A stretch of 64,000 nucleotides of DNA from Acidobacteriota bacterium (GCA_022340665.1 JAJDNM010000132.1:1-64000); one strand, 5' to 3'. Numbered from the stretch's first letter, positions 10,690-28,370 are shown. Made by a program: numbers and translations. Notes: generated by a model from the sequence alone, not told the origin.

Positions 10690-12651
10690 TCAATACGTAA
10701 ATCGTCCCACGATCTTTTTCAGCTCCTCGGCCATTCTCGCCAACTCGTCGCCGCGCTCGTGCGATGACGTGGAGGCAACCGCCGTCTGCTGCACGGCGGC
10801 CGCAATGCCTGCGATGCGCTCCGCAATCTCGCTCGATCCGGTGGCTGCCTCGGTCACGCTGTGAGCGATCTCTGCGGTGGTGGCCGTCTGCTCCTCGACA
10901 CCGCTCGCGATCGTCGTCTGAATATCGTGGATCTTGCGAATGATCCCCGAGATCTCCTCGGTTGCGTCCACCGCAACCTTGGTGTGGTTGCTGATGACCT
11001 CGGCGGTCGAGCTGATCTCTTCGGTCGCCTGCGCCGTCTGATTGGCCAGTTTTTTGACCTCATCCGCGACCACTGCAAAGCCCTTACCGGCCTCACCCGC
11101 GCGGGCCGCCTCGATGGTGGCGTTGAGCGCGAGAAGGTTGGTCTGCTCGGCGATGGCGTAGATTACCTTGACCATGTCACCGATGGTCGTGCCGCTTTCA
11201 TCGAGGCGGTCGAAGGTCGCCTTCGTCTCATCGGCGATCTCTACTGCCCGGGTTGCGACCTGAGCCGCCTCGGACGCGTTGGCCGCGATCTCCCGGGTGT
11301 TTGCGTTGAGCTCCTCGGTCGCCGTCGCCACGCTCTGGACGTTGGCAGACACCTGCTCGGCCGCGGCCGATACCATGCTCGCCTGGGTCGATGTTTCCTC
11401 GTTGGCCGACGCGATTTGCTGGGACAGGTTCCTCATCTCGTCGGATGAGCTCGACAGCAAACCCGCCTGAACGGCGAGCTGCTGGATGTCCTTCTGGATA
11501 CCGCCGGCGAAGACATTGAAACTCTCGCCCAATTGGCTGAGCTCATCCGCGCCGGTGATCTCGACCCTGCGCGTGAGATCCGCATCTCCCTCTGCGATGT
11601 CCTGGAACCGGTCGAGCAGCTTGCGGATCGGTCGCGTGATGATCCGCCGCGCGATCCAGACAATGAACCCGCTGATGCCGAGGATCGTCAGCAGGACAGC
11701 CAGGCCCGCCTTGAGTGCGCTCTGGCGAACCGGCCCGGAAATGACTTCGTCCGGCACGACAAGACCGAGGGTCCAGTCGATATACGGCGATTCAGACTTG
11801 ACCGGCGCCATCAGGATGAAGACGTCCTCGCCCTTCCAGGTGGCCCTGCTGCGGCTCCGGTCTCCCGAGAGGAGCCGGCTGCTGAGGTCCGAGAAGCCGA
11901 CGGTGTCCGGCACCAGCCCGTCAAGGTCTTTCAAGGTGGCTTCGATTTCAATATCTGCATCGGTGAAGTAGATGATTTCGCCCCGTTGATCGACCAGAAA
12001 AGCTGAGCCGGTGCCCGCGTATCGAACCTGTTCGACGAGTCCCGCGACAGTCGTCAGCAGGACATCCGCGCCGCCAACACCAAGAAGGGTGCCGTTCTGC
12101 AGGTACACCGTCGTCTGGATGACGACAGCCACCTCCCGTGTCAGAAGGTCGACCGTCGGCGAGGCAAGGTACAGCTTGTCCTCGCCGACTGCCTCGTGCC
12201 ACCAGGGACGATTCTTGACGAGGTACCCCTCCTCCTCCACCCGACCCTCCGGCATTTCGGGAATCCGGTTGGAGAAGTAGTCCTGGGTGTCCTCGTCGGC
12301 GAAAAAGACGGCTTTGACGGACGGGTCCTTCCCCACCAAGGCGTCGAAGTAGTCGATGATCGCTTCATAGTCCGGATCGCCGAACACCGGTGCGCGGTGT
12401 TCGGTGTAGCGTTCGAAATAATCGAGAATCGAGGGGTTGGAGAAGACGGCGTCGACCATCCTACCCCTGGTGGTGAAGAACGTCTCGATCTCCTGCGCCG
12501 TGCCCCCGACCACCTGTTCGACTTCAGTGTAGGTCTTCTGGCGCGTGATGTCGGCGTATTCGATCACGGTCACGACTCCGAGTATCGCCAGCGCGAGCGC
12601 AATCGAACCTCCGACGAACACAATTAATTTCTGCTGGATGTTGAGATGCAT
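10690..12651 (-). CDS. Methyl-accepting chemotaxis protein with dCache sensor
   Basis: A 653-residue transmembrane chemoreceptor. TM1 is at about residues 10-30. A periplasmic dCache-type sensor occupies 31-310 (NRPWWHEAV and [14 protein letters not shown] signatures). TM2 is at about 317-337, HAMP at 338-390 ([19 protein letters not shown]), then the cytoplasmic signalling coiled coil with the hairpin tip [20 protein letters not shown]. It lacks the C-terminal NWETF-like CheR/CheB docking pentapeptide and ends [17 protein letters not shown] precedes the start and a TACACT box lies at 12695-12700. It is divergent from cheA, its likely partner. Confidence 0.96.
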
Positions 12652-12779: not shown

Positions 12780-12877
12780 GGGTGAATGGATGGGGTGCAT
12801 ACAGCTGCTATTCTGGATGTCAGGGCAAATCGGGGCCGCATCGAGCGACCCACGGCGCCTTATCGTGGAGTGCATGC

Positions 12878-15184
12878 ATGGGTGGTATGGACGCGATCAT
12901 CGCCGAGTTCCTTGCCGAGAGCGTCGAAAACCTCGACCAGATCGACAAGGATTTGGTGAACCTCGAGAAAAACCCATCGGATCGGGAGACGTACGGGCGG
13001 ATCTTTCGCACCATTCACACGATCAAGGGCACCTGCGGATTCCTCGCCTTCGGAACCCTTGAATCGGTCACCCACGTGGGCGAATCCCTGCTTGGTAGCC
13101 TTCGCGACGCAGAGATCGAGCTGACGCCCGAAATCACCACCGATCTGCTGGCGATGATCGACGCCGTGCGAGCGATCCTCGCCAACATCGATGCGACGGG
13201 CAGCGAAGGCGACGAGGATTACAGCCTCCTGATCGGCCGCCTCGAGAGCCACGACCGGACAGCCGAGGAACAAGAATCACGGCCGGAAACCGGCGCGAAA
13301 AAGTCCGCAAAACCCAGGACTGGCGGCAAGAAGCCGGCCGCGGCCGCGAAGGCGAAAAAGAAGACTACGACTCAGAAATCCGGATCGACCAAGAAGAAAC
13401 CCGCGGCATCAACCGAAGCTGAATCGGTCTCGAAAACCGGCACGGACGATCCGGAAGCAGATCGGGAGGAGCTCGAGCTGACTTCGACGCCGACCATGGC
13501 CGAGAGCAATATCCGCGTCGACGTGCGGGTCCTCGACCACCTCATGAATCTGGTCGGCGAGCTCGTGCTCGCCCGAAATCAGCTCGTCCAGCACCCCACC
13601 GCATCGGCGGATCCCAACCTCGCCTCTTCCTCGCAGCGGCTCGATCGCGTCACCAGCGAACTCCAGGAAGCGGTGATGCGCACCCGCATGCAGCCGATCA
13701 GCTCCATCTGGCGCAAGCTGCCTCGTTTCACCCGCGACCTCGCCATGAGCTTCGGAAAACAGGTGGAAATCACGATGGAGGGCGAGGAGACCGACCTCGA
13801 CAAGAGCGTCATCGAGGCGATCAAGGGATCCCTCCTCCACCTCGTCCGCAATTCGATCGACCACGGAATCGAAAGTCCGGAGACGCGCGAGTACCTCGGC
13901 AAACCACCCGCGGGGAATCTGCGGCTGCGCGCTCACCACGAGGGCGGAAATGTCGTCATCGAGGTGCGTGATGACGGTGGCGGCCTCGATCACGAAGGAA
14001 TCCTCGCCCGCGCGGTGACGGCCGGCCTGGTGACTGAAGAGGAGGGTGGCAGGCTCAGCCAGCCGGAGATTGAATCCCTCATCTTTCGACCTGGCTTTTC
14101 AACCGCCTCCGAGGTCACCAACGTCTCGGGGCGCGGAGTCGGGCTCGACGTCGTTCGCGCAAATGTCGAGAGCATGGGCGGAACCATCGAGATTCAGAGT
14201 GAAACCGGCAAGTCGACGACCTTCAGGCTCAAGATTCCGCTGACGCTCGCCATCGTCTCGGTGCTCCTGGTCCGCTCGGGTCGACATCAGATCGCAATTC
14301 CACAGGCAAGCGTGATCGAGCTCATCCGTCTCGATGAGCGCGGAGAAGATCCGGGTATCGAGGATCTCGGCGGCGTCCCGGTCTATCGCCTGCGAGGCAA
14401 TCTCCTCCCGTTGGTATTCCTCGACCGGGAGCTCGGCGTCGGAACACGTGACGAGGACGAACGAAACGCAAATATCATCGTCCTCCAGGGCGACGACCGT
14501 CAGTTCGGGCTGGTGGTGAACGGCGTCAAGGATTCCCAGGAAATCGTGGTCAAGCCTCTCGGAAACCTGCTATCCGGGCTCCCCTTTGCCGGCGCCACGA
14601 TCCTCGGAAACGGAAGAATCGCACTCATCCTGGACATCTTCCGCCTCGGACTGGCCGCAGGCGTGGTTTCTGAAACCCGCGCCCACACAACGTCTACCCT
14701 GTTATCCGAGGCTGTCAGAGAAAGGAAGAAGACCGAACGTCTCGTCTTTCTCCACGGCGAAGGCGGTGAACGACTGGCTCTCGATTTCAATCTCGTGAAC
14801 CGGCTGGAGAACTTCCCACGCGCATCGCTCGAGCAGGTTGGCGATCGGCTGGTCGTCCAGTACGGCGGCGAGATCCTCCAACTCGTCGATATCCAGGGCA
14901 CTCTGCCTGAGAGGCGTAGCCAGGCGCGGGACAGGTCCATCCGGTTGCTGGACGAGACCGTGCCGGTCGTCGTCTGCACCGTGAAGGGTCGCCATGTCGG
15001 GCTGTTGGCTCACCGCATCGTTGACATCGTCGATGAAGACCTCAAGGCACGACAGCCGGGCAGTCGCACCGGAGTCCAGAGCTGCGCGGTCGTCAGAGAC
15101 CGCATCACTGAAATTCTCGACCTCGAAGCCCTCATACAGCTCTCCGATCCCGAGTTCTTCGAACGACCGAGCGGCCGGGAGTGA
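12878..15184 (+). CDS. cheA: Chemotaxis histidine kinase CheA, without P2 and with two CheW-like domains
   Basis: A 768-residue kinase that phosphorylates CheY and CheB in response to receptors. Hpt domain at residues 1-105 with phospho-acceptor His47 (RTIHTIKGTCGF). A Lys/Ala-rich linker (about 125-205) stands where P2 normally lies. P3 dimerisation follows (VLDHLMNLVGELVLARNQL), then the HATPase domain (HLVRNSIDHGIE, DDGGGL, GRGVGLDVV) and a CheW-like P5 domain (about 465-600). A second CheW-like segment runs to the C-terminus (about 610-760). Start at 12878 is supported by GGAG 7 nt upstream. It heads cheA-cheW-cheY-cheB-cheR. Confidence 0.96.
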   Translation: MGGMDAIIAEFLAESVENLDQIDKDLVNLEKNPSDRETYGRIFRTIHTIKGTCGFLAFGTLESVTHVGESLLGSLRDAEIELTPEITTDLLAMIDAVRAILANIDATGSEGDEDYSLLIGRLESHDRTAEEQESRPETGAKKSAKPRTGGKKPAAAAKAKKKTTTQKSGSTKKKPAASTEAESVSKTGTDDPEADREELELTSTPTMAESNIRVDVRVLDHLMNLVGELVLARNQLVQHPTASADPNLASSSQRLDRVTSELQEAVMRTRMQPISSIWRKLPRFTRDLAMSFGKQVEITMEGEETDLDKSVIEAIKGSLLHLVRNSIDHGIESPETREYLGKPPAGNLRLRAHHEGGNVVIEVRDDGGGLDHEGILARAVTAGLVTEEEGGRLSQPEIESLIFRPGFSTASEVTNVSGRGVGLDVVRANVESMGGTIEIQSETGKSTTFRLKIPLTLAIVSVLLVRSGRHQIAIPQASVIELIRLDERGEDPGIEDLGGVPVYRLRGNLLPLVFLDRELGVGTRDEDERNANIIVLQGDDRQFGLVVNGVKDSQEIVVKPLGNLLSGLPFAGATILGNGRIALILDIFRLGLAAGVVSETRAHTTSTLLSEAVRERKKTERLVFLHGEGGERLALDFNLVNRLENFPRASLEQVGDRLVVQYGGEILQLVDIQGTLPERRSQARDRSIRLLDETVPVVVCTVKGRHVGLLAHRIVDIVDEDLKARQPGSRTGVQSCAVVRDRITEILDLEALIQLSDPEFFERPSGRE

Positions 15185-15186
15185 AA

Positions 15187-15633
15187 ATGCATCGACAGTT
15201 CTGCACCTTTCACGTCGGTGATCTTTTTCTCGGCATCGAGGTCAACAATGTGCAGGAAGTGCTTCGCGGATGTGAGATCACCCCGGTTCCTGCCGCACCG
15301 CCGGAAATCCGCGGTCTGATCAACTTGCGCGGCCAGATCGTGCCTGCAATCAATCTGAGAACGCGGTTCGGAATCGAAAAGAGCGCTGATGGACCGTTTA
15401 CGGTGCTCGTGCTCGACACCGGCACGGAACCCCTCAGCTTCGTGGTCGATCGCGCTGGCGAAGTTGTTGAGGTCGACGAAGAGAGCTTCGAACAGCCGCC
15501 GGACACTCTCACTGGGGAGCCGAGGCGTCTCATTCAGGGTGCTCACAAGCTGGAAGACTCGTTGTTGTTGGTGCTCGACCTCGAGCACGCGGTCACAATA
15601 AAGATTGACGGCTCCAGAGAGAAGGAAAAGTGA
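15187..15633 (+). CDS. cheW: CheW coupling protein
   Basis: A 148-residue adaptor that links receptors to CheA. It is a single CheW domain (FCTFHVGDLFLGIEVNNVQEVL, then the conserved PAAPPEIRGLINLRGQIVPAINL), with no other domain. ATG at 15187 is chosen over the in-frame GTG at 15181 because GGAG at 15178-15181 is well spaced for it. It starts 2 nt after the cheA stop. Confidence 0.95.
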   Translation: MHRQFCTFHVGDLFLGIEVNNVQEVLRGCEITPVPAAPPEIRGLINLRGQIVPAINLRTRFGIEKSADGPFTVLVLDTGTEPLSFVVDRAGEVVEVDEESFEQPPDTLTGEPRRLIQGAHKLEDSLLLVLDLEHAVTIKIDGSREKEK

Positions 15634-15676
15634 GAACTTTCAGTACGCAACGAACTTGCAGAGTTCGGGAGTGGTC

Positions 15677-16048
15677 GTGCGGGCGCTGGTGATCGAGGAC
15701 TCGCGAGCGATGAGATCGATCCTTGGTGAGATCCTCGGTGATGTCGGGTTCGAGTCCGTGATGGCGGCCGACGCCGAAGATGCGCTGGCCGGCCTCGAGG
15801 ACGACCACGCCTATGATTTTGCGCTGGTGGACTGGAATCTCCCCGGGATGAGCGGGCTCGAACTCGTGCAACAAATCCGCAATCGAGCGGAAATGAACGA
15901 TATCCGGCTCATGATGGTGACCACCGAAACCGAGCGCGCACGGGTCCAGGAAGCGCTCGATGCGGGCGCGGACGAGTACATCATGAAGCCGTTCGACAAA
16001 GAGATGCTCCTGGAGAAGCTGATTCTCCTCGGTATCGAGGTCGGTTGA
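15677..16048 (+). CDS. cheY: CheY-like response regulator
   Basis: A 123-residue stand-alone receiver domain with GTG start set by GGGAG at 15667-15671. It shows the acidic pair (VIEDSRAM), phospho-acceptor Asp in FALVDWNLPGMSG, the Thr switch (MMVTTET) and Lys (YIMKPFDKE). It is phosphorylated by CheA and would signal to a motor or other output, but no flagellar or pilus gene is in the window. It is cytoplasmic and overlaps the region upstream of cheB. Confidence 0.93.
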   Translation: MRALVIEDSRAMRSILGEILGDVGFESVMAADAEDALAGLEDDHAYDFALVDWNLPGMSGLELVQQIRNRAEMNDIRLMMVTTETERARVQEALDAGADEYIMKPFDKEMLLEKLILLGIEVG

Positions 16049-16056
16049 GCCGCCGC

Positions 16057-17112
16057 ATGAACGCAATTCGCATCCTGGTTGTCGATGATGCCGTGGTGGC
16101 GCGCCGGATCATCTCCGACATCCTCGTCGCCGAGGACGATTTCGAGGTGGTTGGAACCGCACCGAATGGAAGACTCGCGCTGGAAAAGATCGCCAGGCTC
16201 AAGCCGGACATCGTCACCCTCGATATCGACATGCCGGAGCTCGACGGCATGGAAACCCTCTCCGCGATCCGATCCGATCACCCTGAGGTTCGGGTCATCA
16301 TGGTCTCCAGCCACACCCGACGAGGCGCCGCCATAACCGTCGATGCTCTTTTTGCAGGAGCAGCCGACTACGTCACCAAGGCCCAGGGCGCCAACACCTA
16401 CGAGGAGGCGCGGACCGTCCTCCGCGAACAGCTGGCACCCAAGATTCGAGCCATCGTTTCGCGAACCGGTTCGGCCTCCAGGAAGGTCTCCGCGGCACAC
16501 GCCTCCTTCGCGCCGCCAACCGACGCCGAACCTATCGAGGTCGTGGTCATCGGTTCATCGACGGGTGGCCCGAACGCGCTGACGACGATTCTCAAGGCGA
16601 TTCCGGCCGATTTCCCGGTACCGGTTCTCATCGTCCAGCACCTGCCCGAGAACTTCACCACCTTCCTTGCCAAACGCCTCGACGCCGCGTGTGCCTTGCC
16701 GGTTCGTGAGGCGAGCAAAGGGGCGTCGGTCGAGGCCGGCACGGTGTGGATCGCACCCGGAAACCTCCACCTCGAAACGCAATCCACCGACCGAGGCATC
16801 AGGCTCTCCACCAACGACGGTCCCCTGGTGAACTCCTGCAGACCCGCAGCCGATATTCTGTTTCAAGCCGCAGCAGAGTGTTACGGCCCTTCCGTCCTCG
16901 CCGTGGTCCTGACCGGCATGGGACAGGACGGCCTCGACGGATGCCGTGCGATCTCCGCCGCGGGCGGACGGGTCATTGTCCAGGACCGCGACAGCAGTGT
17001 CGTCTGGGGCATGCCCGGACAGGTAGCCGGTGCCGGACTGGCGGAGTCCGTACTCCCAGTGACCGACATCGGAGCAGAGATTGTGCGCCGGGTGAAAGAC
17101 TCGCGACGATGA
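16057..17112 (+). CDS. cheB: CheB protein-glutamate methylesterase/glutaminase
   Basis: A 351-residue receptor methylesterase. The N-terminal receiver has phospho-acceptor Asp56 (DIVTLDIDMPELDGM), followed by a linker. The C-terminal esterase domain carries the catalytic Ser in VVIGSSTGGPNALTT, His in IVQHLPENFTTFLA and Asp in LTGMGQDGLDGC. ATG at 16057 is used; a TTG at 16045 that overlaps the cheY stop is possible. Its stop overlaps the cheR start (ATGA). It works opposite CheR to set adaptation. Confidence 0.95.
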   Translation: MNAIRILVVDDAVVARRIISDILVAEDDFEVVGTAPNGRLALEKIARLKPDIVTLDIDMPELDGMETLSAIRSDHPEVRVIMVSSHTRRGAAITVDALFAGAADYVTKAQGANTYEEARTVLREQLAPKIRAIVSRTGSASRKVSAAHASFAPPTDAEPIEVVVIGSSTGGPNALTTILKAIPADFPVPVLIVQHLPENFTTFLAKRLDAACALPVREASKGASVEAGTVWIAPGNLHLETQSTDRGIRLSTNDGPLVNSCRPAADILFQAAAECYGPSVLAVVLTGMGQDGLDGCRAISAAGGRVIVQDRDSSVVWGMPGQVAGAGLAESVLPVTDIGAEIVRRVKDSRR

Positions 17113-17972
17113 GCGGCCAGCACGTCGACCCTCCGCAGTCGATCAATCGGCTCGATTTCGACTTCATCCGCACCCTGGTTCACGAGGAATCCTCGATCAT
17201 GCTCGACGAAGGCAAGATGTATCTCGTCGTCTCGCGACTCGCCCCGGTGGCCCGCGAACAGGGATTCCCGTCGGTCGAGGCATTGATCTCGCACCTGCAG
17301 TCATCTCCGAGAGGAGAGATTCATGACCTCGCGGTCGAGGCCATCGCGACAACCGAAACCTCTTTCTTCCGTGACCTCTATCCCTTCATCGAGCTCCGTG
17401 ACACGGTCTTGCCGGAGCTCATCAGAGCCCGACGGAGCACATCTCGGAGTCTCAGCATCTGGTCGGCAGCGTGCTCGAGTGGTCAGGAGCCTCACAGCAT
17501 CGGGATGATCCTGAGGGATCGTTTCACCACTATCAACGGCTGGAACCTGCAGCTTCTGGCGAGCGACATTTCCCGGCGTATGGTCGATCGTGCGCAGGAG
17601 GGCATTTACTCGCAGATCGAGGTCAACCGCGGCCTTCCCGCATCGTACCTGGTCCGATTCTTCAGTCAGAAGGACGACCAGTGGCACCTCGACCGTGGAG
17701 TCAGCGGGATGTTTCGTTACTTTCGTCAGAACCTCGCTGCCGATTGGCCGGCGCTCCCGCCGGTCGATATCATGCTGCTGCGAAACGTCCTCATCTATTT
17801 CGACGTCAATACTCGCCGCAAGGTGCTCAGGCGCGTTCGACGCCTGCTCCGTCCTGACGGCTACCTGGTGCTCGGAACAGCCGAGACGACGCTCAATCTC
17901 GATGATTCGTTCGTCCGCGTGCGGTCGGGACGTGCCGTGTTCTATCAGGTTGCGGAAAACAACGGGAAGTGA
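17109..17972 (+). CDS. cheR: CheR chemoreceptor methyltransferase
   Basis: A 287-residue SAM-dependent methyltransferase that methylates MCP glutamates. It has an N-terminal all-helical domain, the conserved ATTETSFFRDLYPF, the SAM-binding SIWSAACSSGQEPHSIGM (usually ACSTGEEPYS) and LLRNVLIYFD. It starts within the cheB stop (4-bp overlap). The stop TGA (17970-17972) merges with a GAGTTGAGAG repeat tract. No TPR or other extension is present. Confidence 0.95.
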   Translation: MSGQHVDPPQSINRLDFDFIRTLVHEESSIMLDEGKMYLVVSRLAPVAREQGFPSVEALISHLQSSPRGEIHDLAVEAIATTETSFFRDLYPFIELRDTVLPELIRARRSTSRSLSIWSAACSSGQEPHSIGMILRDRFTTINGWNLQLLASDISRRMVDRAQEGIYSQIEVNRGLPASYLVRFFSQKDDQWHLDRGVSGMFRYFRQNLAADWPALPPVDIMLLRNVLIYFDVNTRRKVLRRVRRLLRPDGYLVLGTAETTLNLDDSFVRVRSGRAVFYQVAENNGK

Positions 17973-18020
17973 GTTGAGAGTAAAAAGTTAAGAGTTGAGA
18001 GTTGTAACCCGCCCGGCCGG
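17970..18020. repeat. GAGTTGAGAG-unit repeat tract after cheR
   Basis: Degenerate GAGTTGAGAGT/AAGAGTTGAGAGT units run from the cheR stop codon into CCCGCCCGGCCGG. This looks like a left arm plus core of the window-wide hairpin family, without a clear right arm. Confidence 0.5.
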
Positions 18021-18730
18021 TTCGGAAGCAAGACACCCGGAAGACGAATAAAATCCTGTGTTTCCGGAATCTCCGCTGGCCTTCACGGCCGCAACCCAGG
18101 TGAACTGCACCCACGCATTCCGGAAAGGCAGTGATCCGTTGGCTTTTTCCTGGTCAGTCTTCCGAATGTGACAGCCTGAGTGGCCCGAAACCGCCACCGT
18201 CGGCGGCCGCTGGAGTGAAGGGCTTCCGGCTCCGCCTACGGCTACGCCGTGACAAGTCTTCGCGAGGGCCGCGAGGCGGTGCGAGATGGCGACCGCTTGC
18301 GGGCGCCAGATTGCGGCGTATCGCGGGCCGCAGCAGAAGCCCGAGAACGACAGCGGACAAGCGAGGCCTGAAGGAATGACGGGGACCCGCTTGCGTCATT
18401 CCTTCGGGCCGAGAACGGAGGCGCCGTAGGCGCCCCGCCGACCTCGGGCACTCACCGGCGGAAGCGCGCCACCAGGTCCGGAATCGGCGCGAGGAGAAAT
18501 GGACTGATGGACGCGCGATATTCACAGATCCCTCCACTCGCTTCGCTCGGTCGGGATGACAGTGGGGGGTTGAGGCTTCGCTCGGTCGGGATGAAAGGGT
18601 GTGCGGCCTGCCCGCGCGCCGCAGGCGCGCAGCGGACGAGGGCCGACGGATCGACGAAAGCTCGCTTTCGGGGAGCCGGAGACCCGAGGATGCGTGGCTG
18701 CGATCGGAGATCGCAACGGGCGGGCCGTCG
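18021..18730. other. Gene-free region with inverted repeats and repeat fragments
   Basis: About 700 bp with no credible gene; the open frames here are Arg-rich shadows. It contains a perfect 10-bp inverted repeat TTTCCGGAAT/ATTCCGGAAA (18061-18070 and 18117-18126). A 17-bp near-perfect pair starts GGCCTGAAGGAATGACG (18365-18381 and 18394-18410). Fragments of the GTCATCC-type element include GGCTACGCCGTGACAAGTC and CAGATCCCTCCACTCG...CGGTCGGGATGAC at 18525-18560. It appears to be decayed repeat DNA between two signalling operons. Confidence 0.6.
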
Positions 18731-18964
18731 CTATCCTGCCTTCCTCGAGGTGCGATGAGTCGCTGAGGTTTCGTTCGTGTCTTCGTCCGTCGCACCGCCC
18801 GCCGGCGCCAGATGTTGCGGCTGAATCTCCCACGGCAGCTCCGCAAAGACCGATCCGGCCGGACGCAGGAGGACCCTGCCGTCCCTGCTCGGAGAATAGT
18901 CCCAGCACGTGACGTCGAGAGCATCCGCGAGGGTCGCCAGGACGTCAGGTTTCTTGCGACTCAT
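18731..18964 (-). CDS. Small protein of unknown function at the end of the PATAN operon
   Basis: A 77-residue protein whose ATG overlaps the preceding stop by 4 bp (ATGA), which supports real translation. It begins MSRKKPDVLATLADALDVTC, followed by a short core with PWEIQPQHL and a Ser/Thr-rich polar tail. No membrane segment or known domain is seen. Its position suggests an accessory role for the V4R-like protein. Confidence 0.55.
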   Translation of the reverse strand: MSRKKPDVLATLADALDVTCWDYSPSRDGRVLLRPAGSVFAELPWEIQPQHLAPAGGATDEDTNETSATHRTSRKAG

Positions 18965-21069
18965 CGGTCACCTCGTGAATCATCCGAACCGGTAATTTCG
19001 CTCAGCAGCTTGTGATCCTCGGAACCCGGAGTAGCGATCAGAAGCTTGGTGAGTCGATCGTCGGTCGCCACAATGAAGAGGCATGTATCGCCAGGCTCGC
19101 GGCTGCAGTGCACTTCGCGCGCTGCGAGCTGGCGACCGGCCAGATAGGACAGGATTGCGGCGTGGAATCCAGCGAGGATCGCGCATGCACCACCCGCTGC
19201 GGCCGAGAAAATCCCCGGGAACGGGCTCGAATGATGCCGGATCAGGACGAGTCCGTTTTCTCGATACCCGAGATCGGCTTCGAAGCTCCCGAGGCCAAAA
19301 ATGCCGATCGAGGACGACAGGAGCTCGAGAGCCATCTGGGACTCGAGCTCGCGCAGGGTTTTGCCGTAGTCTCGTTGCACGACCTGCTCGAGCCGCATCG
19401 CGTGGCGCAATCCCCACTTCTTCCCGAAACGTTGCAGGAGCTCGTGATGACGATGCATCAGGCTGCGAGAGAAGAGTCCCTCGAAGGCCTGCAGGAAATC
19501 CTCGTTGGCAACCAGCAGCCGGTCCGACTTCTCGTCCCTCAAAGATCCAGTCAACGGATCCCTCTCGATGTCCGGCGACAGAGCACGACGCTGGTCTCTC
19601 AACCGATTGATGGCGACGATGCTGCCATCTCCCGACGCCTGCTTCACGATCGCCATGCGAAGGACATGTTCTTGATGACCGCAGCCGAGCACCTCTCGGC
19701 CCACGGCCACTCTCTCACCGTCGGGGCCTTCTCGTCCAAGGCGCTCCGTCAGCCTGTCAGCAAGAAGTGCGATATCGGCCGGCAAGACCTCACCCAGGGC
19801 TTTTCCGATCAGCAATCCGGGGTTGACGTTGCCGAGCCTCGGCCCATAGATCGAAAGGGTTTGGATAACGCCTTCACCGTCGAGCACCAGGCAGCCAACC
19901 GGAACCGGCAGGTCGATCATCTGGTCGGAGCCATGACCCTCTTCTTCGGATCCACCGTCTCGTTTCCCGAGTGAGAAGATCTCCGAGAAGCCGCAACTTT
20001 CAAGCTCGTCACTCCATGGGGCAAGCAAGCGGGCGATTCGGTCCGGATTGAATCTCCAGGCCAACGCACCGTCGAGACGATCGAAGATCGCCTCGATCCA
20101 CAACGAAACTCCCTGCACGAGATCGTCGGCAGAGATTTCGCCGGTTTCGGTGCCCGCCACAGTCACCGCACCCTCTTCATGGATCGAAAAGATGTCGAGG
20201 ATCGGGAGTTCCTCTGCGATTTCCGATTGAAGCTCAGCGAATCGTTGCTGGACCAGACGCGGATCGAGGTGGTTGACGGCATACGAGCCAACCACATTGA
20301 GGACTATCAAAGCGAGATTCAGCACCGGATTTTCTTCATCCGGCAGCTCCGGAGGAGGCATTCTCACAGCGCTCTCCTCATCGAGGCGCCGCATGGCTTC
20401 GAGGAGCAGTGTGGACGGTGGAATCTGGAACCGGTCTTCGACGTCAACTTCGCCAAAATCGGCCTCGAAGGTCCCGTCGGACCAGTGGGCTATCTCGTAC
20501 ACAGCCTCTTTGCCCTGATGCGAACCTTCGATTTCGGCCTCGACGACGAAACCGTCACGCATCCACACTGTTCCTTTCGAACCGTTGTGCTGGAAATAGA
20601 TGGTTCCCGACCTGCGGCCCGTTTCAGCCGTCTGGAGAAGATCCGGAACCGACAGCTGTTCCAGCGATCCAAAGAGGAGCTGGTCGGAACGGTGCTTTTC
20701 GATGGCGAGCTTGGTCGTGAGCGCGACCTCTTCGCCGTCGTAAGGCGGGAAAACGACACTCAGGAGGCCCATCCTCAGCGCCCGGCGTCGGTCCTCTTTC
20801 TCTTCGTGGGCCACCACGACCAAGGGAATCTGCTCCATCAGCGGATTCGACTCGAACAGGGTGAAGAGAATCGAATCGCCCCCTGCGACATCTCCGAGAG
20901 GGGTCAAAATCGCGTCCGGCAGGGCGAACTGTCGTCTGGAGGTGATCGATTCGGCCTCGTCCACATTCGACATCGCGACCACTTCGTAGTCCGCCGCCTG
21001 AAGTCCGCCGCACAGCTTCGCCGCAATGGCGGATTCCGGGTGCACGACGTAGACGAGGTCCCCGCTCAT
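18961..21069 (-). CDS. Multidomain signalling protein: pseudo-receiver, DUF4388/PATAN, PAS-like, V4R-like
   Basis: A 702-residue cytosolic protein. Residues about 3-125 form a receiver-like fold, but the phospho-acceptor position reads PDAILTPLG with Thr instead of Asp. Residues about 128-205 are a PATAN/DUF4388 domain (LFGSLEQLSVPDLLQTAETG, then GTIYFQHNGSKGTVWMRDG). About 405-500 is PAS-like (GCLVLDGEGVIQTLSIYGPR). The C-terminal 170 residues resemble the 4-vinyl reductase (V4R) fold, with a late Cys pair (VHCSREPGDTCLFIV). Start 21069 is preferred because the N-terminal in-frame extension is not protein-like. It is the fourth gene of the 23583-18731 operon. Role unknown; ligand-controlled protein interaction is likely. 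Confidence 0.78.
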   Translation of the reverse strand: MSGDLVYVVHPESAIAAKLCGGLQAADYEVVAMSNVDEAESITSRRQFALPDAILTPLGDVAGGDSILFTLFESNPLMEQIPLVVVAHEEKEDRRRALRMGLLSVVFPPYDGEEVALTTKLAIEKHRSDQLLFGSLEQLSVPDLLQTAETGRRSGTIYFQHNGSKGTVWMRDGFVVEAEIEGSHQGKEAVYEIAHWSDGTFEADFGEVDVEDRFQIPPSTLLLEAMRRLDEESAVRMPPPELPDEENPVLNLALIVLNVVGSYAVNHLDPRLVQQRFAELQSEIAEELPILDIFSIHEEGAVTVAGTETGEISADDLVQGVSLWIEAIFDRLDGALAWRFNPDRIARLLAPWSDELESCGFSEIFSLGKRDGGSEEEGHGSDQMIDLPVPVGCLVLDGEGVIQTLSIYGPRLGNVNPGLLIGKALGEVLPADIALLADRLTERLGREGPDGERVAVGREVLGCGHQEHVLRMAIVKQASGDGSIVAINRLRDQRRALSPDIERDPLTGSLRDEKSDRLLVANEDFLQAFEGLFSRSLMHRHHELLQRFGKKWGLRHAMRLEQVVQRDYGKTLRELESQMALELLSSSIGIFGLGSFEADLGYRENGLVLIRHHSSPFPGIFSAAAGGACAILAGFHAAILSYLAGRQLAAREVHCSREPGDTCLFIVATDDRLTKLLIATPGSEDHKLLSEITGSDDSRGDR

Positions 21070-21109
21070 CGGTGGTCCTGTGGACCCAAGGTGACGATTC
21101 GGCAGGACC

Positions 21110-21946
21110 TCATACAAATACCCTGATATCGGCTTCCGAATCGCCGGCCAGCAACGCCGCCCGGACGGATGCCCTCTCGCCACCCGGCAATGTGACGGTG
21201 TCCGAAGCGAAAGGTGGCTCGGGTCGAAGCTTGATGGCGTCGGATTCGAGCTCGGTACATACATGACCACCGACGATGTTGACGCACTCACAGACGGCGT
21301 CGATCGCCACCTCGCTGCCTTCCTCTACCGGGATACCGAGGAGCCCCCGTCCGATCAAGGTTTCGATCTCCGGCGGAAGGTCGAGGACGACATGGATCTC
21401 GTGGTCGCCCTTGAGCTTCTGGACATACCTGCGGTGCTCCTGTTCGAGCTCTCCGCCATCCTCGCTCAAGGACAGCAGCTTGACCGGCCCCTCGGTGAAT
21501 CGCTTGAGGTGAAAGACTGCGAGCTCGACGACCGTCTTGACGATTGCCGGATGGGAGCAGGCGCGGAAGTCCGCCTCCAGCCTTTTCTCCGCGGCTCTCT
21601 GAACCTCATGAAATGCGGAAAGATGCTCTTCCAGATGGTCAGCACTCAGGTGCCCGCTCTCGATCAAGGCCACGCCGATCATTACCCGATCGGCGCGTTG
21701 TTTCTCGAGAAGCTGGTCGATCTTTTCACGATCGAGCCGACCGATTTCCTCGCACAGGTCTTCGAGCTCCGCATCAGTTGTCCGATATGCCGTGAGAACC
21801 GTTTCCGCCCGTCGCGGCTCGAGGCACCCATCACGAACTGCAAGCTCGACCAGCGACAGGTTCTTTTCTCTCTGGAGTTCGATCGTTTCGATCAGCGCCT
21901 CGCGGCTGATCGCGCCTTTGGAAAGCAGGTATTGACCAAAAAACAT
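21110..21946 (-). CDS. CheX-like phosphatase domain fused to MshEN-like repeats
   Basis: A 278-residue protein. Two N-terminal segments, FGQYLLSKGAISREALIETI (about 3-22) and MIGVALIESGHLSADHLEEH, resemble the LG..L...G.....L..AL..Q motif of type II/IV secretion ATPase N-domains (MshEN). The C-terminal half resembles CheX/CheC phosphatases and contains the E-x-x-N pattern in AVCECVNIVGGHVC. It would dephosphorylate the adjacent CheY-like protein (18 bp upstream), as CheX does in chemotaxis systems without CheZ. The fusion is unusual. Function is inferred from motifs only. Confidence 0.72.
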   Translation of the reverse strand: MFFGQYLLSKGAISREALIETIELQREKNLSLVELAVRDGCLEPRRAETVLTAYRTTDAELEDLCEEIGRLDREKIDQLLEKQRADRVMIGVALIESGHLSADHLEEHLSAFHEVQRAAEKRLEADFRACSHPAIVKTVVELAVFHLKRFTEGPVKLLSLSEDGGELEQEHRRYVQKLKGDHEIHVVLDLPPEIETLIGRGLLGIPVEEGSEVAIDAVCECVNIVGGHVCTELESDAIKLRPEPPFASDTVTLPGGERASVRAALLAGDSEADIRVFV

Positions 21947-21964
21947 GGAAAACCGGTCCTTTCC

Positions 21965-22336
21965 TCAGGCGACCTGAGTCAGGTCACGCATGAATTCGAC
22001 GAAATCGTCTCTGGTAAACGGTTTCTGCAGGAAGGACCGGGCTCCGGTAGTCAGACACTCGTGGACCGCGTCCTCGGTTCCGAGCGACGACACGATGACC
22101 ACGAAAGCATCCGGATCGATGGCGAGAATCCGCTCGAGGGTCTCGACGCCCGACTGGCCCGGCATGATGAGATCGAGAAGCACGATATCCGGGCGTTCCT
22201 CGGCGAAGCGCTCGACCGCCGCACGCCCGTCGCGCTCCGAAGCTACGACCTCGAATTCAGAGTCCTCCAAATAGGCCGCGATAATCGTCAATATCGCGGC
22301 CGAATCGTCGACTGTCATGACCCGCCATTTGGTCAT
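21965..22336 (-). CDS. CheY-like response regulator of the PATAN operon
   Basis: A 123-residue single receiver domain. The acidic pair is in VMTVDDSAAI, the phospho-acceptor Asp in PDIVLLDLIMPGQSG, the switch region in FVVIVSSLGTED and Lys in SFLQKPFTRDD. It overlaps the upstream PATAN gene by 4 bp and precedes the CheX-like gene. No kinase is in this operon, so phosphate may come from CheA of the neighbouring cluster. Confidence 0.93.
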   Translation of the reverse strand: MTKWRVMTVDDSAAILTIIAAYLEDSEFEVVASERDGRAAVERFAEERPDIVLLDLIMPGQSGVETLERILAIDPDAFVVIVSSLGTEDAVHECLTTGARSFLQKPFTRDDFVEFMRDLTQVA

Positions 22337-23583
22337 TCACGCTCTCCCCAGCCATCTTCGTTCGTCGTCGCATCAACCGATCTCGCCTCTTCCAACCAAT
22401 TCAGCTTCTCGGCCAGCACGTTTCGCTCGATTGCCAAGCCGGCCTCGATCATCAAGAGTTCGAGTCCGTGGATCGAGGTGATGGGATGCCCGCCCGGAAG
22501 ATTGTCTCCATAGAAGATGGCCGATACCGCGCCGCTGACCGCGATCGGCATCACAACGACTTCGGTCGGAAAAATCCCCCCGAGTTGATCCACGAGGTAG
22601 TTATTCCACGGACATTTTTCGAGCTTGCCGTGGTAGGTGGACATGGTATTGACGACGCTCGAAAAGACTGATGGCTCGTTTCCGGGGATATGAATTTGCT
22701 GGACCCGCCGGTCCACCTTCGGTGCCTGGTCATCGTCGCGTCCGATCCCGAACTGTCCGATTCCCGAGATTCCATCCGGTGACACTCCGAACAATGCGCC
22801 CCGGTTCACGACCCTGGTGGCGTAACGAAGAATCAACAGCGCGATCTCTCCGACCGTCGCGGTGGGGCGGACCTGGATCTCCGCCATCAACCTGCGGAGC
22901 TCGGCGAGATCAGACGGCCAATCGGTGATCATGTCGGCCAGTTCGGTGCGGAGAACGCTGTGGCCGGGTTCGACCATATAGTTCAGCAGTTCGTGCACGG
23001 TGCGGGCGCCCTCGTCTTCGAACGGACTATCGTCATGGGCTCGCGGAACCGGCCGAACCGTTCCGTCACCGCCGACGGCATCCACCTTGGCCAAAAGATC
23101 GAGGACGAACGGGTCGACGTTGACGAACTCGGTCAGCTTCGCCTCGTCGTCGTCAAACACCCGGTCAGGATCCTGCTCACTATCTTCCACCGCTCTGAAG
23201 TTGAAGAATCCGGATTCCCAGCGCAAGAAATCGCGAGCGATTTCGAGGAGCTGATCGCGAAGCACTTCCTGCAAAGTGTCGTGGGAGATCGCACCCATGC
23301 CGACCAGAATCGCGCCCAGCTTTTTCTGCTCATCTGACAGGCGCTGAGTCGCGACCGCCGCGTCCAGAGTTTCCTCGCTGATGAGCTTTCTCTCGACTAG
23401 GAACTTGCCGACCGAAGGCGAGGAGTACCCGTTGCTCGCATGGAAGACCTTGCCGTCTTTGAAGAGAAAAATGCCGATCGAGTCACCGCGGCTCAAGGTC
23501 AACTTTCCCGATTTCCGAAAAAGCGCGAGCAGCTGGAAGATTTCAGCTAGCCGAAGATCCTCGAGACGACCGACGAGAGCCAT
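22333..23583 (-). CDS. DUF4388/PATAN protein with MshEN-like middle and GAF-like C-terminus
   Basis: A 416-residue first gene of the signalling operon. Residues 1-50 carry PATAN (MALVGRLEDLRLAEIFQLLA, then GKLTLSRGDSIGIFLFKDGK). Residues about 58-125 hold two MshEN-like motifs (VGKFLVERKLISEETLDAAV and LGAILVGMGAISHDTLQEVL). A DUF4388-typical end follows (FLRWESGFFNFRA). The C-terminal 150 residues look like a small ligand-binding fold of the GAF type (VVVMPIAVSGAVSAIFYGDN). Such proteins occur in signalling of gliding or pilus-driven bacteria. No membrane segment. Confidence 0.78.
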   Translation of the reverse strand: MALVGRLEDLRLAEIFQLLALFRKSGKLTLSRGDSIGIFLFKDGKVFHASNGYSSPSVGKFLVERKLISEETLDAAVATQRLSDEQKKLGAILVGMGAISHDTLQEVLRDQLLEIARDFLRWESGFFNFRAVEDSEQDPDRVFDDDEAKLTEFVNVDPFVLDLLAKVDAVGGDGTVRPVPRAHDDSPFEDEGARTVHELLNYMVEPGHSVLRTELADMITDWPSDLAELRRLMAEIQVRPTATVGEIALLILRYATRVVNRGALFGVSPDGISGIGQFGIGRDDDQAPKVDRRVQQIHIPGNEPSVFSSVVNTMSTYHGKLEKCPWNNYLVDQLGGIFPTEVVVMPIAVSGAVSAIFYGDNLPGGHPITSIHGLELLMIEAGLAIERNVLAEKLNWLEEARSVDATTNEDGWGERE

Positions 23584-23847: not shown

Positions 23848-24056
23848 TGAATTAGGAATGAGGAATGAGGAATGAGGAATGAGGAATTAGGAATTAGGAA
23901 TGAGGAATTAGGAATGAGGAATTGGGAATGAGGAATGCCGACTATCCACCCATTTGCATTTCGAATTTCGAATTTCCCACCCACACCCCCAGGGTTACCG
24001 GGAGGGCGGGTGGAAATTCCTAATTCCTAACTCCTAATTCCCAATTTTCCGCACGG
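23848..24056. repeat. Large hairpin repeat with GGAATGA/GGAATTA left arm and AATTCCT right arm
   Basis: About 90 bp of GGAATGA/GGAATTA units (23849-23937) are followed by CCACCCATTTGC, TTCGAATTTCGAATTTCCCACCC, then ACCGGGAGGGCGGGTGG. A right arm AAATTCCTAATTCCTAACTCC... follows (24013-24050). This is one of the clearest two-arm members. The rest of the 23584-24061 gap shows no gene; 23780-23815 is AT-rich and may hold the promoter of the PATAN operon. Confidence 0.78.
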
Positions 24057-24358: not shown

Positions 24359-24467
24359 GGAGTTTTGAGTTCACAGTTTTGAGTTTTGAGTTGCCACCCA
24401 CCCCTCCGACGAATCGTTCTTGGCTGGCGAGTTGAAACTCAAAACTCATAACTCAAAACTCTCAACT
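24359..24467. repeat. Two-arm TTTTGAG hairpin repeat
   Basis: Left arm GAGTTTTGAG...TTTTGAGTT (24359-24392) and CCACCCACCCC; right arm GTTGAAACTCAAAACTC...AACTCAAAACTCTC (24430-24465), the reverse complement of the left units. It lies in the same-strand gap between actF and the small membrane protein gene. Confidence 0.78.
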
Positions 24468-24470
24468 GCC

Positions 24471-25682
24471 TTATGCGCTCTCGAACGCCAGGGATTCTTC
24501 GAGGCGCGGATCCTTCTCGGCAACCACCGAGTGTCTCTTGAGGCGCAAGATGACTGCCGCCGACGTGATGCCGTGCAAACCGAGAAAGCACAGAACGTCG
24601 AGCACGCCGAAGCGGGCAACCCCCGGGCTGAACTCGGGTATCACCAGCCAGTAGATGTCGATCCAGCACATCACCGCTACGAAGACGCCGGTGAGGGCGA
24701 GCAACAAAGGCCGGCGCTTGATCATCCGTGAGACGAGCAAGATGAATGGAGCCAGGAAATGACCGAAAATCAGTATCAGGCTGACCGTCGTCCATTCACC
24801 GGTCTGCCGCTTGAGGAACCACTCGGTCTCCTCCGGAAGGTTGCCGTACCAGATCAACATGTACTGGGAAAAGGCGATGTAGGCCCAGAAGACCACGAAA
24901 GCGAAGAGCAACTTGCCGATATCGTGATAATGCTCGACGGTGATCGCGTTTCTGAGAACTCCCCGGGCCTGCATGGTGTACAAGACCCGCGGCATCACCG
25001 CCAGGAAGGCCAATACAGACGCGGCGAAGTAATACACGCCGAAGATCGTGCTGAACCAGTGCGGGTCGAGGGACATCAGAAGATCGAAGGACGCGAAATT
25101 GAGGCTGAGAGCGAAGAGAATCATGCCCGGAGCGCTGAATTTCTCCATCCTCAGCGTCAGGGCCGGATCACCGCTCGCATCCTGCGCGACCGACGTTCGA
25201 TGGAGAAAGGTCGCGAGAAAACCCCAGATCAGGAAGTAGGCGACGAGCCTGATGGTGAAGAACGTCGGGTTGAGGAACCCGATCTTACCCTCGAGCAACG
25301 GATCGTGGGCCGCGGCAGCCGTGTCGGTCCAGGGGTAGAGGTGACCCATCCCGAGAACGATCGGTATGGCGAGGATGCCCATCAGCCAGACGTTGCCGGC
25401 TATCGCCTCCGCCACCCGGCGCACAACCACGCTCCAGCCGGCGCGCGTGCAATGCTGGAGAAGAACGAAGAAGAGCGCACCGAGAGAGATGCTCAGGATG
25501 AAGGCGAAGCTCACGAGATAGGTTTCGAGCAGGTAGTCCATCCCGCCCTCTTTGCCGTTCGCGAGCACATACGAGCCAACCAGGCCGAGCACGCCGATAA
25601 CGAGGGAGATGATCAATGCCGGTTTCGCGATCCCGTCCAGGTGTCGTGTTTCGGTCGTGATGTCGAGTACGGTGTCCTGCAT
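24471..25682 (-). CDS. actF: Alternative complex III subunit ActF (NrfD-like)
   Basis: A 403-residue polytopic quinol-interacting membrane subunit of the quinol:cytochrome c (or HiPIP) oxidoreductase alternative complex III. About ten hydrophobic segments are present, including IAKPALIISLVIGVLGLVGS, MILFALSLNFASFDLLMSLD and LLFAFVVFWAYIAFSQYMLI, the last a typical ActF stretch. Start 25682 (MQDTVLD) is chosen because the in-frame extension is not membrane-protein-like. It is the last act gene, 10 bp after actE. Confidence 0.92.
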   Translation of the reverse strand: MQDTVLDITTETRHLDGIAKPALIISLVIGVLGLVGSYVLANGKEGGMDYLLETYLVSFAFILSISLGALFFVLLQHCTRAGWSVVVRRVAEAIAGNVWLMGILAIPIVLGMGHLYPWTDTAAAAHDPLLEGKIGFLNPTFFTIRLVAYFLIWGFLATFLHRTSVAQDASGDPALTLRMEKFSAPGMILFALSLNFASFDLLMSLDPHWFSTIFGVYYFAASVLAFLAVMPRVLYTMQARGVLRNAITVEHYHDIGKLLFAFVVFWAYIAFSQYMLIWYGNLPEETEWFLKRQTGEWTTVSLILIFGHFLAPFILLVSRMIKRRPLLLALTGVFVAVMCWIDIYWLVIPEFSPGVARFGVLDVLCFLGLHGITSAAVILRLKRHSVVAEKDPRLEESLAFESA

Positions 25683-25692
25683 CGATCCCCCG

Positions 25693-26340
25693 CTATCGCA
25701 GTCGCGCCCGCAGATCGGGCGGGACGTCGTCGACGGTTGCATTCTGACTCCGCTGCAAGGCCCTCACGTAGGCAACGATCGCCCAGCGATCCTCAACCGG
25801 GATCTGCGGGCCGTAGGCCGGCATGTTGCGGATTCCGTTGGATATCGTGTTGAAGAGGTGGCCGGCCGGCCGACCTCGCACCAGATCGGTGTGGAAGGAG
25901 GACGGCGGCGTCCAGGTTCCTTCCAGAAGTTCGTCGGCCCGTTTGGCCACCATCCCGTCGCCGAAGCCCGCAAGGCCGTGGCACGGCGAGCAGTAGATGT
26001 CGTAGCGCTGCCGGCCACGGCGGACGAGCGCGAGATCGACCTTGATGGGGCTCACCTCGAGCCAGTCCCCACCATCCTTGCCGGTCGTCAGGGCCGGCGA
26101 ATCGATCGTCGCACCGCGAGGCACGGTGCCGGCTACCGGTGGGCGCATGGCGCGGCGATCGGCAAACATCGGATTGCGCGCCTGCGGCTTGAACTTCGGT
26201 TGATTGTCCATGTCCGGAATGACGTGGATCCTCGGATCGGGCGAGGAGGTGACCCGGGCCCGCATGATCAACGCGAGCGGCACCCACGACAGGACCACCA
26301 GAATCACCACCGCGAACAGGAGCCAGCGTGGAAGGTTCAT
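25693..26340 (-). CDS. actE: Alternative complex III monoheme cytochrome c subunit ActE
   Basis: A 215-residue protein anchored by one N-terminal helix (PRWLLFAVVILVVLSWVPLA). A single haem site, CSPCH, lies at about residue 125 (YDIYCSPCHGLAGFGDGMV), and a later NMPAYGPQIP region may supply the axial Met. It carries electrons from the ActB/ActA part to the terminal acceptor on the periplasmic side. Its ATG overlaps the actD stop by 4 bp. Confidence 0.93.
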   Translation of the reverse strand: MNLPRWLLFAVVILVVLSWVPLALIMRARVTSSPDPRIHVIPDMDNQPKFKPQARNPMFADRRAMRPPVAGTVPRGATIDSPALTTGKDGGDWLEVSPIKVDLALVRRGRQRYDIYCSPCHGLAGFGDGMVAKRADELLEGTWTPPSSFHTDLVRGRPAGHLFNTISNGIRNMPAYGPQIPVEDRWAIVAYVRALQRSQNATVDDVPPDLRARLR

Positions 26341-26909
26341 GGTAGGTCCTCGATTTCTTCCACCGCTCGTCCCGAGATCTCTTCTAACAGGCGGCGCGTC
26401 TCGACACGGTCGAACAGGGGGTCTTTCGCCTCGATGGAAATGAAGAATGTGTCGTCGGTCGCCCGCTTGAATGAGCGGTTTGTGAACAGGGGATGTGAGA
26501 GCTGAGGCAGTCCGTTGAGGGCGAGCATGCCGACGAGGGCGCTCAAAGCCGCGAACAGAATTGTCGTCTCGAATGCTATCGGAATGTTGGCCGGAAGGCT
26601 GAAGAGCGGCTTGCCACTGATCAAAAACGGGTAGTCGACGGCGTTGGTCCACCATTGGAGGAGGATTCCCGCCGCCGCCCCGGTGAGGCCCCCCAGAAAC
26701 ACGATGTACGGGAGGATCGTCTTCTTGACGCCCATCGCCGCGTCGAGGCGGTGGAGCACGAATGGGCTGTGGGTGTCCCAGCGGGTGTAGCCGGCATCAC
26801 GCACGATCCGTGCGCCCCTCAGCAGCTCATCCACCTTGTCGAAGGCTACGAGATAGCCGTACAGTCCGTTCGACTCACCGCCTCCGGCATGTGTGGTCCG
26901 ATCACTCAT
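26337..26909 (-). CDS. actD: Alternative complex III subunit ActD (DUF3341)
   Basis: A 190-residue membrane subunit of the DUF3341 family. The cytosolic N-terminal part (YGYLVAFDKVDELLRGARIV, then GYTRWDTHSPFVLHRLDAAM) matches the family. Two membrane helices follow (ILPYIVFLGGLTGAAAGILL and AFETTILFAALSALVGMLAL) and then a C-terminal DPLFDRVETRRLLEEIS. Start 26909 overlaps the actC stop by 1 bp and the stop overlaps actE by 4 bp. Confidence 0.93.
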   Translation of the reverse strand: MSDRTTHAGGGESNGLYGYLVAFDKVDELLRGARIVRDAGYTRWDTHSPFVLHRLDAAMGVKKTILPYIVFLGGLTGAAAGILLQWWTNAVDYPFLISGKPLFSLPANIPIAFETTILFAALSALVGMLALNGLPQLSHPLFTNRSFKRATDDTFFISIEAKDPLFDRVETRRLLEEISGRAVEEIEDLP

Positions 26910-28369
26910 CACAGATCCACCTCTCGAACAGCGATATCGCCGTGGTAGTCGCCGTGGCCACGGTGTCCCGGATGGTCGAGGTGGGCCTGCGGCATCACGC
27001 CCTTGACCTCCGCCATGCCCACCATTGGCAGGAAACGAACGAAGAGCAGGAAGAGCGTGAGAAAGAGACCGAAACTGCCGATGAACGTCAGAACGTCGAT
27101 CGCGGTCGGCCGATAGTAGCCCCAACTGGTCGGCACGTAGTCGCGGCTGAGAGAGCTCACCACGATGACGAATCGCTCGAACCACATGCCGACGTTGATC
27201 AAAATCGACGCCACCCAGAGAATGAGGGTGTTGTTGCGCAGCTTTCTCACCCAGAAGATCTGCGGCACCAGGACGTTGCAGGTGACCATTGTCCAGTAGG
27301 CCCAGGCGTACGGGCCGAAGGCCCGGTTGAGGAAGGTGAACGCTTCGTAGACGTTGCCCGAATACCACGCCATGAAGAACTCGGTCGAGTACGCGAATCC
27401 GACCATCATCCCGGTGGCGAGCATGATCTTGGCCATGTTCTCGAGGTGGCGGGCGGTGATGATCTCTTCGAGCCCGAAGAACTTCCGGGTCGGGACGATC
27501 AAGCTCACGACCATTGCGAAGCCCGAAAAGATGGCTCCGGCGACAAAGTAGGGCGGGAATATCGTTGTATGCCAGCCGGGCATGATCGAAACTGCGAAAT
27601 CGAAGCTCACGACCGAGTGCACCGACAGTACGAGTGGTGTCGCCAGCGAAGCCAACAGCAGGTACGCGAACTCGAAGCGGTGCCAGTGACGGTTCGACGA
27701 GCGCCAACCGAGGCTGAGGACACCGTAGATGTAGAAGCGAAGCTTGGTGGTTGCGCGATCGCGAATCGTCGCCAGGTCGGGGATCATCCCCATGTACCAA
27801 AAGAGCAGCGACACCGTCGCGTAGGTGCCGACGGCAAAAACGTCCCACAGCAACGGCGAGCGGAAGTTCGGCCACATCGACATCTGGTTGGGAATCGGGA
27901 AGAGCCAGTATGCGACCCATATGCGGCCGACGTGAATTCCGGGAAAGATGCCTGCGCAGACGACGGCGAAGATCGTCATCGCCTCGGCGAACCGGTTGAT
28001 GCTGGTGCGCCACTGCTGGCGCAGGAGAAAGAGGATAGCCGATATCAAGGTTCCAGCGTGGCCGATGCCGACCCAGAATACGAAGTTGACGATCGCATAG
28101 CCCCACCCCACCGGAATCTGGAGGCCCCAGACGCCGACGCCGGTGGTCACCAGATAACCGATACAGGCGAAGAGGACGAGGGTGAGGCTCGAAGCCGCTG
28201 CAAATGCCGCCCACCAGAATTTTGGAGGCTTCGGCTGCTCGATGATGCCACAGACCGTTTCGGTCACTGAGTGAAAATCGTTGTCACCGACCACCAGCCG
28301 CGCGCGAACGGTCGGATCATCACTGGTATTGTCGAGGTAGCTCACGGGATCGACCGCGGCGGCGCTCAT
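26909..28369 (-). CDS. actC: Alternative complex III subunit ActC (NrfD-like)
   Basis: A 486-residue polytopic membrane subunit, the main quinol-site candidate of the complex. Start [13 protein letters not shown]. About ten helices include [20 protein letters not shown] and [20 protein letters not shown], with the typical NrfD-like [18 protein letters not shown] loop. The C-terminus is His-rich ([15 protein letters not shown]). It starts 1 nt after the actB stop. Confidence 0.94.
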
Positions 28370-28370
28370 C

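Follow-up and report, generated by a model that had tools for sequence, protein, structure and literature searches.

A conserved operon of PATAN proteins, a CheY-type receiver and an MshEN-CheX fusion as a candidate second output branch of a chemosensory pathway in Acidobacteriota

Introduction

What is the role of a signalling operon that encodes no kinase and stands face to face with a complete set of chemotaxis genes? The question arises from a stretch of DNA of 64,000 nucleotides from an Acidobacteriota bacterium (GCA_022340665.1 JAJDNM010000132.1:1-64000), analysed at its whole length and called the window hereafter. Positions 18731-23583 hold five minus-strand genes, A-B-C-D-E, encoding two PATAN proteins (A and D), a stand-alone receiver (B), a fusion of MshEN-type repeats to CheX (C) and a small protein (E); a cheA-cheW-cheY-cheB-cheR cluster lies beside them (Table 1). 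To our knowledge, chemotaxis without flagella is understood in few lineages only. We favour, with about even confidence, the reading in which this operon serves the adjoining chemosensory pathway, whose CheA is the only one of the genome, as a second output branch, with the type IV pilus as its most likely target. Judged from sequence, chemical signals would probably act through the operon to steer or brake type IV pili.

Conservation of the operon with the che cluster

The gene set was followed in 20 genomes of the window's family (Thermoanaerobaculales, Acidobacteriota), which are related and hence do not count as independent trials. The MshEN-CheX gene was present in 10 of them, and with one exception, given below, the order A-B-C-D-(E) was kept in these ten. 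With ten genomes showing this gene order, the arrangement is far beyond chance, and the idea that the operon is an isolated oddity was rejected. Each of the operon genomes (10/10) also holds the che cluster seen in the window, whole or truncated where a contig stops. It is convergent with the operon and adjoins it in seven (the window, G006, G010, G015, G017, G018 and G019) of the eight genomes that could be judged, contig ends leaving the adjacency unresolved in G004 and G014. Three further genomes (G008, G009 and G011) carry a related, more distant orthologous che cluster and an A-type gene, and are devoid of B, C and D; the A-type gene is convergent with the cluster and adjoins it in G011 (L096), of a more distant genus, and lies elsewhere in G008 and G009. 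In a CheA tree, which has long branches for G010 and for second CheA types, a single change parts the B-C-D genomes from the A-only genomes with moderate support. Outside the family, a receiver stands beside an MshEN-CheX gene in two distant Acidobacteriota (L035 and L077). Since these pairs occur without PATAN genes, they suggest that B-C is the older core. Myxococcota relatives resembling MshEN-CheX (L024 and L025) were rejected as members of the same system, having neither the ExxN motif nor a receiver neighbour.

These data bear on the possibility that the operon is an independent two-component unit, in which another histidine kinase would phosphorylate B and the che neighbour would be there by chance or through shared regulation. 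The five operon genes include no kinase gene, the adjacency to che is lost in G005, and B-C pairs lie beside unrelated genes in other lineages, as in L077. However, the che cluster accompanies the operon wherever the latter occurs in the family, B-C-D was found in none of the seven genomes without the cluster, and CheX is a family of CheY phosphatases; we therefore consider an independent unit highly improbable. By gene conservation, the link between operon and che cluster appears strong. The initial annotation had proposed this link and suggested looking for conserved synteny with che clusters across relatives. The proposal is borne out within the family, where half of the genomes share the gene set, usually beside che, and B-C-D is confined to genomes with this cluster.

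An intact receiver beside a predicted phosphatase

Gene B matches the receiver domain profile (E 1e-25), and its phosphorylation site is complete, with D10, D11, D55, S83 and K105 invariant in 10 orthologues. Its closest solved structures are archaeal and Thermotoga CheY. The protein is 76-92% identical in relatives and is the most conserved of the neighbourhood, with a mean pairwise identity of 81% (A, 55%; C, 48%; D, 56%; E, 42%; che proteins of the same genomes, 58-64%). Helix 1 of B is almost frozen across relatives.

The C-terminal part of gene C matches CheX both in Pfam (29.2 bits, cut-off 27), where some orthologues fall just under the cut-off, and among solved structures (PDB 3hm4, E 1e-4). 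Its catalytic motif D-x3-E-x2-N is invariant in 10 orthologues, and gene C is a predicted phosphatase of phosphorylated CheY (CheY-P). In front of CheX stand four MshEN-type repeats which match PilF and MshE structures. The protein passes the NCBIfam c-di-GMP_motif model for cyclic diguanylate (c-di-GMP) receptors (43.0 bits, cut-off 38), and a motif scan of the window protein retrieved at best 8 of 11 positions. MshEN-CheX fusions were listed in 2016 by Wang et al., without further study (PMC5013675).

Most relatives possess a second CheX. A stand-alone cheX gene directly follows cheR in 11 family genomes, with D-x3-E-x2-N intact in 10; in G004, which belongs to the window's genus, this CheX has diverged and the catalytic Asn is replaced by His. 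At the corresponding place of the window (17973-18730) neither a cheX gene nor a detectable remnant was found, and gene C is the single CheX match of the window genome. The stretch is contiguous, which makes loss through assembly unlikely. Most of the family thus has two CheY/CheX pairs by sequence, and of the two CheX proteins the window genome kept the MshEN-CheX alone. The same interval contains, at 18542-18594, two copies of TTCGCTCGGTCGGGATGA that are 35 bp apart; this sequence occurs at 19 places of the genome with at most one mismatch, its reversed control at none, and represents a dispersed intergenic repeat.

A second CheY with an adjoining phosphatase could also drain phosphate. If B and C formed such a sink or adaptation module, they would merely draw phosphate from CheA and shape the response time of the cluster CheY; in the window genome, which has no CheX in the cluster, they may be the sole route of signal decay. 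Most operon-bearing relatives, however, keep the separate che-cluster CheX, so that no sink is needed there. Conservation along the entire length of B greatly exceeds that of CheY, and this points to several specific partners. For PilH of Pseudomonas aeruginosa, a role as phosphate sink was tested and rejected (PMC10519157). Because C keeps the full CheX motif beside an intact and strongly conserved CheY, we favour a regulated branch over a sink and judge the latter quite improbable. Of the two roles initially offered for this operon, phosphate sink or output module, the second is thus preferred.

Domains of the PATAN proteins

Gene A begins with a PATAN domain (DUF4388; Pfam E 6.7e-22, 78.2 bits, cut-off 25) whose helical insert (residues 55-111) is MshEN-like and matches PilB and PilF structures with E values down to 1e-12. 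The protein passes the curated NCBIfam c-di-GMP_motif (MshE-type) model (46.5 bits, cut-off 38), and the motif scan of the window protein kept at best 10 of 11 positions. Neither A nor C contains two complete 24-residue RLG...Q motifs with a 5-residue spacer. With the model passed and these motifs incomplete, we regard control of both proteins by c-di-GMP as a live possibility. Together with the second CheX of the relatives, which is lost here, the c-di-GMP model passed by A and C points beyond what was first noticed at this locus. In L077, MshEN repeats fused to CheX are weakly hit by the DUF4388 model as well, and a relationship may exist between MshEN and PATAN inserts such as that of gene A.

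Mean confidence was low in the AlphaFold models of A and D (predicted local distance difference test, pLDDT, 52 and 61, respectively), and fold matches were used only where sequence evidence agrees. For the C-terminal part of A, the low-confidence model gave 136 matches to PDB folds (E <= 0.001), with GAF proteins leading. Gene A has no receiver, so that the association of PATAN with a working receiver in one protein, typical of PixG and PixE, is not found in it.

Gene D consists of a pseudo-receiver, a PATAN domain without the helical insert, a helical stretch without match, PAS and V4R, in this order. In the pseudo-receiver, H10 and its neighbour, T56 and P108 occupy the positions of the acidic pair, the phospho-acceptor Asp and the Lys, respectively. 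The usual phosphorylation would not be possible at such a site, and D would act as a fixed adaptor, or as a sensor through V4R/PAS. The PAS domain is weak by sequence and is backed by fold matches, the best of them to PYP; as to PYP-like light sensing, inspection by eye did not reveal the chromophore Cys of PYP there. By sequence the V4R domain scores 21.4 bits, under the curated Pfam cut-off of 31, while its fold, in a low-confidence model, matches DmpR, MopR and PoxR. Four invariant residues (C629, E652, C655 and C663) align without gaps to their MopR equivalents, and the spacing of the three Cys equals that of the DmpR zinc ligands C151, C177 and C185; the fourth ligand of DmpR is printed as Glu172, which would be two residues off (PMC7264223). 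The V4R domain of D is thus predicted to hold a zinc site of the DmpR/MopR type.

Gene E yielded no match in the search for a family. At least six genomes share it, and its start-stop overlap with D is conserved too; the idea that it is a spurious open reading frame was rejected on these grounds. The domain content first proposed for the operon stands for the receiver and for PATAN and CheX, the latter two over their profile cut-offs, and is supported for the MshEN-like and GAF parts. Structure prediction, recommended at the same time, backed GAF, PAS and V4R through fold matches, but the models of A and D are of low confidence and V4R stays below its cut-off.

Type IV pili as the probable target

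No FliG was found in any of the 20 family genomes, and a flagellar output of the operon was rejected for this reason. Pilus- or secretion-type ATPases are present in all 20. The window genome encodes a PilB with MshEN and the c-di-GMP motif, two PilT-family proteins, one CheA, two chemoreceptors (MCPs) and 12 GGDEF proteins. In Synechocystis, PATAN mediates direct binding to PilB (Han et al. 2022, as cited in PMC10519157), an interaction also supported by PMC7690835. A pilus target is preferred because FliG is absent, pilus-type ATPases are found throughout the family, and PATAN and MshEN are both tied to pilus motors. The same three observations strengthen an early guess that the operon acts in surface motility.

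The same pathway could have another output. The operon would then belong to an 'alternative cellular function' system which governs c-di-GMP, exopolysaccharide or where another machine is placed, instead of pilus motion. In line with this, CheA of the window has one Hpt, two CheW domains and no receiver, and so departs from the type IV pilus (Tfp) class, which in P. aeruginosa has several Hpt and a C-terminal receiver (PMC10542144). PATAN and MshEN are found in many non-pilus contexts (PMC5013675), and gene D bears sensory domains. On the other side, both domains have been studied best in pilus motors, and genomes of the family encode pilus ATPases and no FliG. We consider another output unlikely.

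Several observations weigh against an output branch of the che pathway directed at pili. No pilus genes adjoin the operon, and the window genome has 15 PATAN matches, so that PATAN need not mean pilus control. Gene A is missing from the operon of G014, the operon of G005 is not beside the che cluster, and G003 has a lone gene A with no che. Key positions of the MshEN motifs are altered in both A and C, with R, G or Q gone from several repeats, and changes of this kind led to documented loss of c-di-GMP binding (PMC5013675).

In the favoured model of a second output branch, the array of chemoreceptors, CheW and CheA would phosphorylate both the cluster CheY and receiver B. The two PATAN proteins, A and D, would be the targets or the partners of phosphorylated B (B-P) and, much as the PATAN regulators of Synechocystis do, would engage the extension motor PilB. 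Removal of the phosphate from B-P by C would end the signal, and in the window genome C may dephosphorylate CheY-P too. The MshEN-type parts of A and C would let c-di-GMP tune the output, and D would add a fixed, phosphorylation-independent receiver along with a zinc-V4R/PAS input (metabolite or redox state). A bolder proposal, which we put forward only tentatively, is that C may be a c-di-GMP-gated CheY phosphatase. The c-di-GMP level would then directly set the rate at which the chemotaxis output is erased. In this pilus-steering pathway, three inputs would converge at the motor through the PATAN readers, of which one would also respond to c-di-GMP and one would also be a zinc-V4R sensor.

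Organisation of the locus

All five genes initially annotated at this locus are present (Table 1). Three of them had been described as linked by 4-bp overlaps; in the window such overlaps join A to B and D to E, but gaps of 18 bp and 40 bp separate B from C and C from D. C and D share a 4-bp overlap in relatives such as L027. The che set, described as complete, upstream and facing the operon, is indeed complete and convergent, but lies downstream in the sense of transcription.

Upstream of gene A, the minus strand at 24471-31628 carries c-type cytochrome, NrfD and molybdopterin/Fe-S genes, which also occur there in several relatives and are probably an alternative complex III operon. Gene A stays beside them in several genomes. 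They were rejected as functional partners, given that che tracks the operon and these genes do not. A 7-bp repeat, GAATGAG, is present in about 13 copies at 23849-23937, upstream of gene A, and similar short A/T-rich arrays occur at 24015-24046 and 24436-24467.

Table 1. Features of the locus, in window positions, and examples in relatives, in positions of the named L sequences
Feature	Position	Strand	Remarks
Gene A	22333-23583	-	416 aa
Gene A, MshEN-like c-di-GMP-type motif pair	23251-23415	-	Residues 57-111
Gene A, GAF-like domain	22384-22800	-	Residues 262-400; AlphaFold block, pLDDT about 40-81
Gene B	21965-22336	-	123 aa
Gene C	21110-21946	-	278 aa
Gene C, four MshEN-type repeats	21611-21943	-	Residues 2-112; PilF/MshE structure matches
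Gene C, CheX catalytic motif	21278-21301	-	D216-x3-E220-x2-N223; invariant, 10 orthologues
Gene D	18961-21069	-	702 aa, counted from ATG at 21069
Gene D, pseudo-receiver	20695-21069	-	Alignment of 9 orthologues; PhoB-type receiver match
Gene D, PATAN without helical insert	20374-20670	-	E 1e-20, 74.0 bits, cut-off 25
Gene D, V4R zinc-site residues	19081-19185	-	C629, E652, C655, C663; invariant
Gene E	18731-18964	-	77 aa, unknown fold; 4-bp overlap with D
cheX gap	17973-18730		Place of relatives' stand-alone cheX
cheA-cheW-cheY-cheB-cheR	12782-17972	+	Complete set, convergent with operon
dCache-HAMP chemoreceptor (MCP)	10690-12651	-	Divergent from cheA
A-type PATAN-MshEN-GAF gene, G011	L096:6687-7826		
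A-type PATAN-MshEN-GAF gene, G009	L098:4478-5608		
A-type PATAN-MshEN-GAF gene, G008	L099:7212-8336		
Stand-alone cheX, relative	L033:5637-5972		
Stand-alone cheX, relative	L096:6251-6661		

Comparison with known systems

We found no published work on this gene set in the literature searched. PATAN-CheY regulators, the dual response regulators of Pil-Chp and CheX are each known separately. Through its PATAN proteins, this conserved, self-contained Acidobacteriota gene set would tie type IV pili to a CheA pathway, and second-messenger and chemotaxis signalling would meet inside one phosphatase, C.

The closest parallels are PixG, PixE and LsiR of Synechocystis, which likewise bring together PATAN proteins, CheA/CheY, type IV pili without flagella and dual response regulators. 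Here, however, the active receiver sits on a protein of its own, apart from PATAN, the receiver of D is dead and placed before PATAN, and CheX is part of the set. With Pil-Chp of Pseudomonas aeruginosa (ChpA, PilG and PilH) the system shares one CheA and two CheY, probably acting on pilus motors, whereas it differs in the make-up of CheA (one Hpt, two CheW, no receiver) and in the PATAN, MshEN, CheX and V4R parts, which are absent from Pil-Chp.

Single components also have known counterparts. The V4R domain of D resembles those of DmpR, MopR and PoxR in its fold match and in zinc ligands in the same register, but accompanies PATAN, PAS and a pseudo-receiver, with no AAA+ or DNA-binding part. 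The repeats of A and C resemble the c-di-GMP receptors MshE, PilB and PilF in sequence, in passing the NCBIfam model and in their PilF/MshE structure matches, but keep RLG and Gln in part and are not on an ATPase. Finally, C shares with CheX of Thermotoga and Borrelia the D-x3-E-x2-N motif, the CheX profile match and an adjoining CheY-type receiver, but unlike them it is fused to four MshEN-type repeats and, in most relatives, is a copy additional to the normal CheX.

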